Assembly: GCA_024734555.1 (NCBI GenBank)
Contig: JANPWX010000219.1
Span: forward strand, 273,076-337,075
Source: Trochalopteron elliotii
Lineage: Eukaryota; Chordata; Aves; Passeriformes; Leiothrichidae
Reading direction: 5' to 3'
Length of the DNA: 64,000 nt
Position 1 is the stretch's first letter. Every line of letters begins with the position of its first letter. The notes beneath the pieces were generated by a model, which was not told where the DNA came from, did not search any database, and saw nothing but the letters and a program-made list of their open reading frames with translations. The position numbers and the translations under genes are program-made. This document shows positions 44,990-47,900 of this stretch, piece after piece.

Positions 44990-47900
44990 ATGGATCCAAG
45001 TGGTGTAAAAGTGCTGGAAACAGCAGAAGATATCCAAGAAAGGCGTCAGCAAGTTTTGGACCGTTACCACAGGTTCAAGGAACTCTCTTCTCTAAGGCGA
45101 CAAAAACTCGAAGATTCCTATCGATTCCAGTTTTTCCAGCGTGATGCAGATGAGCTTGAAAAATGGATCCAAGAGAAACTGCAGATTGCATCTGATGAAA
45201 ATTACAAAGACCCAAGCAATTTGCAGGCAAGTCCTCCTGCCAGTTTATATTTCCTGTACTATTAATTTTAGGGTGTTACAGGTCAGCTGGGATAGAACAA
45301 ACACAGAAATGAAACTTGATCTGAGAGTGAAGAAAGATGGATGCAAATACCCATGACCTTGCAAAGTGCTCTTCAGAAACCTGGCTTTTTTGCTGATGTA
45401 ATTGGAATATTTCTAATAATGGATTAGGTGCTACATCAGCATAGAAAAAATTGCTCAGTGCAATGTAGTGTAAAACCAACTTTGTTTAATCCTAGAATTT
45501 GTAGGATGCCTTAACTCTGTGAATAAACGTGATTTATCTCTTATTGTTTCCACAAAAAAAAAAAAAGATATTTGTAGAAAATAAGCTTGTGTGGGTAGAA
45601 CTAGCTGACAGGTTCTCAGGGGTTTGAACACTGTCATGTGCAAAAGCAAACACAAGAAAGAAATAACTAAAACTGGGATGTTTGAATTCCCCTGTTGATC
45701 CACCATGTGATACAACTGATTTCAACCGTGCAGTTTTATTATTTGTTTGTCAGTCCTGAATATGCATAAAATACTCCTAAAATCTTGCTGCTGGGGAATG
45801 TGGAGGAGTCCCTGCACCAAATCTCAGTTGCATTCTTTGATGTTTTCGTTTCAGGGGAAGCTGCAGAAGCACCAAGCCTTTGAAGCTGAGGTGCAGGCCA
45901 ATTCAGGAGCCATCATTAAACTGGATGAGACTGGAAATCAGATGATTAATGAAAGCCATTTTGCATCTGAAACCATAAGAGTGAGTTTTAAAGCTTTTTT
46001 CCCCTCCACCACCCTTACAGGCCTTTCCTTAAGTGCTTTGTTCAGATTGCACAGATAACTCTATATTCAAAACCTCTTTTTAAAATTCTACAGGTATTTG
46101 ATTAGTGAAATCATGAGAAAGTTTGTATTTGTAAAGCTCAGAGATGGTTTTCTCTTTCATGAGCACCCAGCTCATACCTTCTTTTGGATCTGCTTTTGAG
46201 GAGAACTGTTTAAAGATGAGATATTTTTGTCAAATTGTGTGATTGTCAAATTTAATTGATAAGTTCAGCATTTCCTTCTAACTTGCCTTTACTGGTTCAG
46301 TCCTTCACGCCGTACCGGACTGCCCAGCGCCCAATAGTCACGGCCACCCAAGTGGGGTCCCACATACGAGTAGGTGAAGCTTGTGGCTCTGCAGTGCAAC
46401 TTGTTTTTGCAATGTCTCCTTCCTTCCTTGGTTGACAGTTTGCACCATCCTTCTGGGCAGTGCTCAGGGCACTTTCCTCCCTTGAATCCTCCCTTGAAAC
46501 CTCTTTAATTGAACTTTCTGAGTGGACTAAGTTGGTATCCGCCCATGATGTTCAAAAGCTTCTCTTGAATGACTTTCAAGTTTCAGGTCTTGATGAGCAA
46601 AGTGCTATAGACAATGGGTGGAGTAGTTACTTTCCTGTTTTGCAAGTTATGTGCATGTGTGGGAGTGTGGTTTTACTTTTTGTCGTCTATAAAGTTTATA
46701 GTGGTTCCCAATACTTTTGAAAGGCCAAGTGCAGCAGAGAAAATTAATATTAGAACTAGTAATTGCTCCTAGTATGTCCATATCATGTCACTTCACAATG
46801 TTAGCTAAATATATTAATTGTTTAATGTTAAGAGAAGTAGTTAAAATACAGTGAAATGGCATAAGTTTAACTTGAAACAAGTATGTTATCTTAAATAAGA
46901 ATAAATTCCCAAAGGAAGATGAAATTCACTTATTGGGAGTTGACTTTCATATAAAAAACTGAACATTTGAAGGGGAGAGCAGCAAATTTTTGGTATAACT
47001 TCATATTAGCATAGAATTTAAATCAAATTTTGTCTCAAGATATTTAGCTCATAATTACATAAAGATAACTAAACGTAGCTTAACTAACGTAAAGATTTGA
47101 TAGCTTCATAAATTAATAACAACTGTCTAAATACTCAGTTCAGTAATTTCTAATTTTGTGTTGCAACACTTTACATAATTTGAAAACTATTTACTGGAGA
47201 TAAAATCATGAGGCTTGTCCCTCACCCTTTGTCTAAAGAAAGATTTAGGATGTACAACTGCAGAAAAATAAATAAATCTACTGTTAAGGACAGGAAGGGA
47301 ATAAATCTCATCTTCCTTGATAGGAGGTTTTAATAACATGCTTTTGTTTCAGACTCGACTGCAGGAGCTGCACCGACTATGGGAATTACTGATGGAAAAG
47401 ATGAGAGAGAAGGGAGTCAAATTATTGCAAGCACAGAAGTTGGTGCAATATTTACGGGAATGTGAAGATGTCTTGGACTGGATCAATGATAAGGTGTATA
47501 ATTACTTCCTTTTATTGTGTCCTTGATGGGAAATTTGATCTGTTTGTGTGAAAAATTTCTGTCAGCATAGAGTTGCTGGCGGTCAGGTAGTCTCAGAAAG
47601 CTTGTAAAGGCACCTGTACATTTTATTTAGTTATTCACATTGCATCAGCAGTACATGTGCAAACTGCTACTGTTCTTTTGTAGCTACAATAAAAGTTATT
47701 AGTTTAAGAGGAAGCCTGTATGTTGGAGAGTACTTTTAGGATAATCAATTCATTCTTTGCTTTGAGAAGACAAATAAAATTCAAGTTCTCTCTAAGGGAA
47801 ATCTTTAACATGTGAAAGCAAATATTTTTTAATAAATATTCTAAATTATTTAATTCAGAAAGGAGCCAGGCCAAACAGCAAGCAGTGTGTACATAGCTAC

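Follow-up and report, generated by a model that had tools for sequence, protein, structure and literature searches.

SPTAN1, which encodes alpha-II spectrin, is among the best studied cytoskeletal genes, and of its described inserts the one termed SH3i is presumably included in the canonical sequence, while that of repeat 10 we take to be constitutive. As presented in the accessible text of the respective papers, SH3i is an optional, phase-preserving exon that adds a short peptide of 20 residues to a repeat after the SH3 domain (PMC6521328), and the calpain/calmodulin insert of repeat 10 consists of small phase-0 exons that interrupt the start of helix C, a place that is thereby seen to tolerate inserts (PMC8012654). 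A third case is the Sptan1 exon of the ASCOT study (Ling et al.), which according to the available text is restricted to cochlear hair cells or, by its single-cell data, to hair cells of the cochlea and the vestibular organs (PMC6952364); a review, in the part at hand, terms it a cassette exon and asks about its role (PMC10018040). Text searches of the literature for the peptide described below and for splicing, inserts or novel exons of SPTAN1, covering mostly papers outside subscription, returned the known inserts and, among the matches listed, none in repeat 1. The original prediction for this locus had likewise named no insert at repeat 1, which agrees with the literature as searched but not with the databases, where the exon is already present in a partial human protein record, P0073.

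The window analysed here is a stretch of 64,000 nt from Trochalopteron elliotii, and positions refer to it throughout. It contains, between two constitutive exons of SPTAN1, a 69-nt segment that we regard with near certainty as a real and old coding exon. The gene was mapped with human SPTAN1 as the probe, giving 46 aligned pieces over the window and the sequence downstream of it, and 37 derived junctions without length conflict; introns with uncertain junctions were excluded from the intron set, which comprises 37 introns and 22,512 nt. The features of the locus are as follows.

44990-45226, + strand, first coding exon of SPTAN1, with a GC donor (CAG/gcaagt) at 45226/45227
45855-45980, + strand, upstream constitutive exon GKLQ...ASETIR, encoding helix B of repeat 1 and the first residues of helix C
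46276-46300, + strand, 3' splice region, with a branch-point-like TTCTAAC, a pyrimidine tract and ...tggttcag
46301-46369, + strand, cassette exon, 69 nt, phase 0-0, translation SFTPYRTAQRPIVTATQVGSHIR, with peptide orthologues in other species
46370-46375, + strand, 5' splice site gtaggt, the same exon end as used in human record P0073
46652-46669, + strand, TGCATG (46652) with two GTGTG copies, one overlapping it (46657) and one further on (46665), weakly supported candidates for RBFOX and RBM24/RBM38 sites
47353-47493, + strand, downstream constitutive exon TRLQELHRLW...WINDK, the remainder of helix C
59980-60039, SH3i exon, placed by the gene map from human SPTAN1

Sequence and gene mapping bear out the coordinates, length and translation originally given for the cassette, as well as its open frame and the phase 0 of both borders. 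Its edges read ttactggttcag/TCCTTC...ATACGA/gtaggt, with AG and GT borders and in the frame of the adjoining exons, and by eye the TTCTAAC lies about 20 nt upstream of the acceptor at 46301 with no intervening AG. SH3i differs from the cassette in lying in repeat 9, in its phase 2 borders and in its unrelated peptide; the repeat-10 insert is longer and without significant sequence similarity, but is like the cassette in being encoded by short phase-0 exons close to where helix C begins (the helix register of repeat 10 being judged by eye). Elsewhere in the gene, a second intron beginning with GC is found beyond the window at 75280/75281 (AAG/gcaagt; window-continued coordinates). The window also contains a run of N at 36850-37234 and, far from the exon, a minisatellite at 11341-11744 whose 89-base unit (half-unit 45 bases) is repeated about 4.5 times.

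The splice sites of the cassette exon, described in the original prediction as good, are usable rather than strong. Scored by a position matrix trained on the junctions of SPTAN1 itself, the acceptor at 46301 exceeds 10 of the 37 real acceptors of the gene, and the donor (CGA/GTAGGT), which is weak, exceeds three of its 35 real GT donors; modest scores are common among optional exons. Within the 22,512 nt of intron, 20 AG..GT pairs with a spacing of 30-200 nt equal or exceed the candidate at both sites, and only two of these are open and a multiple of three in length, both with the acceptor at 46301. The second uses a donor after 46351 (51 nt), where the human codon is I and not V, so that this alternative donor is not kept in human. 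Composition is a stronger sign of a real exon than the splice scores. The GC content of 46301-46369 is 0.64 with 6 CpG, and intronic 69-mers with at least 6 CpG (9 of 19,959) form a single run beginning at 46300; the abrupt GC- and CpG-rich composition noted at the outset is the only such stretch in the 22.5 kb of SPTAN1 intron examined, with CpG densities of 4.0 per kb in the introns and 22.4 per kb in 32 exons.

Relatives of the peptide were sought in a collection of vertebrate proteins. A long query, scored on its residues 108-166, gave 66 matches, of which the best (P0001) carries the peptide and the other 65 do not, P0045 beginning further downstream; because these matches are 90% cluster representatives, isoforms may be hidden among them. 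In most of the SPTAN1 representatives, which as database proteins are largely gene models, ETIR is joined directly to TRLQELH. Eleven of the 66 matches (bird UniRef isoforms, among them P0050, P0053, P0056-P0062, P0064 and P0065) instead have ETIR joined straight to ELHRLW, without TRLQ, a variation spanning 47353-47364; use of a CTGCAG acceptor lying 12 nt inside the downstream exon (before 47365) would produce this join, which may be a second variation or a gene-model error. A 494-residue query gave two candidates and no match, and with a 160-residue query the peptide was present in at least eight proteins, counted from the best 120 of 200 matches. Altogether a 23-residue version without insertions or deletions was found in 9 of the 186 retrieved proteins, among the matches listed.

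The human record P0073 ('spectrin alpha, non-erythrocytic 1, partial [Homo sapiens]') consists of exactly three joined exons, GKLQ..ETIR, TFTPYRTAWRPIVTATHIGSHIR and TRLM..NDK, with the cassette peptide lying between ETIR and TRLMELH; it is a partial record of uncertain basis. The exon is orthologous to that of the window, lies between the same two flanking exons and is identical at 19 of 23 residues, differing by T1 for S1, W9 for Q9, H17 and I18. P0001, a Podarcis muralis gene model ('spectrin alpha chain, non-erythrocytic 1-like'), has SFTPYRTAQRPIVTVVHVGAHLR before TRMQELHRLW and shares 18 of 23 residues with the window. Its downstream join deviates by eight extra residues, RPPFPPFQ, ahead of TRMQ, which resemble the translation of an acceptor tract, and the model is flawed in other respects, with a doubtful start and a low-complexity tail. 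P0093 comes from a bird-like contig of 1464 bases, is identical to the window at 22 of 23 residues, and comprises in order the tail of the preceding intron, the upstream exon, the cassette and the following intron, both outer introns being read. ETIR is joined in it to SFTPYR, and it lacks exactly the intron 45981-46300 (320 nt; in the window not a multiple of three, and with stops in frame). The simplest reading is that P0093 represents a partly spliced RNA, the alternative being a genomic loss of just that intron, and the contig would imply use of the acceptor at 46301. The remaining six are fish-like frames (P0083, P0100 and P0102-P0105) with 11-15 of 23 residues identical to the window, whose flanks resemble named fish proteins of the 160-residue search and in which short introns are read through. 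All seven sequences read upstream have Q directly ahead of the cassette (a CAG-type acceptor), and all seven read on downstream continue with V (GTN, with a GT donor). These borders, together with the nine peptides, support the prediction of a cassette exon at the ETIR/TRLQ junction.

Comparison of the window with the nine others points to constraint on the peptide. Its length is the same in all ten sequences, and six of the 23 columns are invariant (T3, P4, Y5, R6, R10 and P11), most substitutions falling in residues 15-23. Among four of the fish-like frames (six pairs), 11-18 of 23 residues are identical in the cassette vs 1-7 of 20 in the next 20 residues, which are read from intron. Stops or frameshifts in orthologues, which had been named as grounds for rejecting the exon, are present in none of the nine other sequences, all retrieved as open proteins; the absence of stops is partly selected for, because the sequences were retrieved as open frames with a cassette-bearing query. 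Peptide similarity across such distances should not, however, be a product of open-frame retrieval, and the comparison supports the view that the cassette exon is under constraint, in keeping with the selection originally proposed.

The B-C loop lies at the N-terminal end of a spectrin repeat and adjoins the partial helix with which beta spectrin pairs, and both the known layout of the protein and structural models place the exon, as predicted, in repeat 1 close to that pairing region. In a model of the peafowl N-terminal record P0067, which is without the insert (mean pLDDT 83.3), helix C of repeat 1 comprises residues 129-183; ETIR ends at residue 133, so that five residues of helix C precede the insert. 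Modelling of the human record, which carries the insert, gave a mean pLDDT of 74.8 and a pTM of 0.33, with residues 33-53 unstructured and helix C from residue 54, a point inside the insert directly after the invariant RP; with few alignment rows carrying the insert, most of residues 40-55 are below a pLDDT of 50 and confidence in this part is low. On this low-confidence model the conserved half would form a loop, and helix C would begin anew in the variable half. The variable half is IVTATHIGSHIR in the human record and ends in GSHIR, resembling the SETIR that it replaces. The peptide had been called unlike a helical spectrin repeat, a description that fits its first half but not its second, which may extend helix C.

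Use of the exon in particular cell types can be considered in the light of the hair-cell exon and of the motifs in the flanking introns. The cluster of TGCATG and GTGTG lies 283-300 nt past the donor, the two GTGTG copies being at 288 and 296 nt, and in the available text of PMC7397384 RBM24 and RBM38 activate the inner-ear exon 68 of Cdh23 through such a motif. The two GTGTG copies in the 300 nt downstream compare with 0.4 expected, but a count of two is reached in 51 of 1251 windows of 300 nt taken from the introns, so that the motif argues weakly for this kind of control. The RBFOX word TGCATG is not enriched over the window (44 vs 53 expected), SRRM4-type TGC and NOVA YCAY upstream are below or near expectation, and CU-rich PTBP-like words number 4 vs 2.0 expected upstream and 5 vs 3.0 downstream; none of these motifs is decisive. 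The first part of the intron past the cassette (46370-46720) is richer in CU and GC than the rest, with a GC content of about 0.48-0.49 at 46400-46540, and its reading is largely retained in P0093; this may point to elements that control splicing, or simply to close kinship with P0093. To our knowledge none of the well-known Sptan1 inserts is restricted to hair cells, and the cassette is therefore a credible candidate for the hair-cell exon. In that case activation by RBM24/RBM38 through GUGUG, set against repression by PTBP1, would lead to inclusion, and the spectrin of the cuticular plate and the rootlet sheath would have a changed tetramer site. Rare inclusion fits the near absence of the peptide from database proteins, and the partial texts available report not only the Sptan1 hair-cell exon itself (PMC6952364, PMC10018040) but also SPTAN1 as a marker of the cuticular plate (PMC5568226) and SPTAN1 with SPTBN1 in rings around the stereocilia rootlets (PMC6981779). 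The two exons have in common that they are little-known cassette exons of the same gene, with a restricted use that for the present one is presumed, but the ASCOT text, as available, gives neither coordinates, length nor sequence, and the published exon may sit elsewhere in the gene; neither spectrin nor Sptan1 is mentioned in the main text of a long-read study of the cochlea (PMC10227054). We put the identity of the two at somewhat below an even chance, and note that it is a sharper form of our preferred explanation rather than its opposite.

Other explanations of the segment depart further from that reading. It could be a second copy of the repeat-10 type of insert, binding calmodulin or a similar partner, and the likeness is striking by eye: the repeat-10 exons DETDSKTASPWK and SARLMVHTVATFNSIK are short, in phase 0 and stand ahead of ELNERW as the cassette stands ahead of TRLQELHRLW, SPWKSA resembles TPYRTA, and the best ungapped match of the lizard peptide in human SPTAN1 is the repeat-10 insert (score 23). 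This kinship failed a shuffle test, however, since 1562 of 20000 shuffles match the repeat-10 region as well as or better than the bird peptide, which is not significant; the bird peptide has better matches than the repeat-10 insert at five other sites in SPTAN1, and the conserved half has no amphipathic helix, so that we consider a shared origin or function improbable. Some ultraconserved intronic elements act at the RNA or DNA level, and the conservation could similarly serve a splicing regulator, a structured RNA or an enhancer, with the peptide incidental; the database matches are proteins and are hence silent on synonymous change. We hold this to be about equally improbable, as no indel occurs in the ten sequences, the splice borders are exact and the human product is in frame. 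A structured RNA in particular was rejected, with no Rfam family matching the window at the gathering score and folding around the exon unremarkable (z 0.90). Least credible of all is a chance pseudo-exon or a young, functionless sequence derived from a repeat. The donor is indeed weak, and 18 other intronic AG..GT pairs score as well, albeit out of frame or closed, but the CpG content is unlike that of any other intronic 69-mer examined and the peptide is kept in human, lizard and fish-like sequences, which refutes this explanation unless all nine records are mis-assigned. Descent from a transposon was likewise rejected: 171 bases of DNA and the 23 residues each have one match in the bird's own 1.04 Gb assembly, in a search that skips very common words. 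Among tandem repeats within the window none overlaps the exon, the nearest being a 12-base repeat at 46475-46503.

The anatomy of the exon, its conservation, its exact joining to both neighbours in the human record and the upstream junction in the bird-like contig, all seen here, are probably best explained as a whole by an old SPTAN1 cassette exon, mostly skipped, that supplies a loop motif near the tetramer site. The exon would predate the split between ray-finned fish and tetrapods, and would be skipped in most transcripts and included in few cells. On inclusion, helix C of the first spectrin repeat would be interrupted after its fifth residue by 23 residues, of which the initial eleven, [ST][FY]TPYR[TS]xxRP, would form an exposed loop with a conserved short linear motif and the last twelve would run into helix C with ..GSHIR in place of the original start ..SETIR; because these last twelve residues would replace the original start of helix C, the triple helix would keep its register. 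That the first half is a functional loop motif we put at an even chance. Such a loop would lie on the end of repeat 1 turned towards the alpha-beta partial repeat, where it would provide a site for binding or modification and might modulate the alpha-beta contact, although we doubt that the insert alters tetramer formation itself.

If the explanation is correct, alpha-II spectrin has retained at its tetramer end, in lineages as distant as fish and human, an exon that would represent an unrecognised, cell-type-controlled variant of spectrin assembly. It would also supply a testable sequence for the published but unexplained hair-cell Sptan1 exon, and variants within it would escape SPTAN1 screens in epilepsy, ataxia and hearing loss if the transcript sets used omit the exon. 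More speculatively, and in our estimation rather unlikely, the exon could be vertebrate-wide and restricted to hair cells, and by displaying its motif and restarting helix C would give mechanosensory spectrin lattices, such as those of the cuticular plate and the rootlet sheaths, an altered alpha-beta contact or a dedicated anchor.
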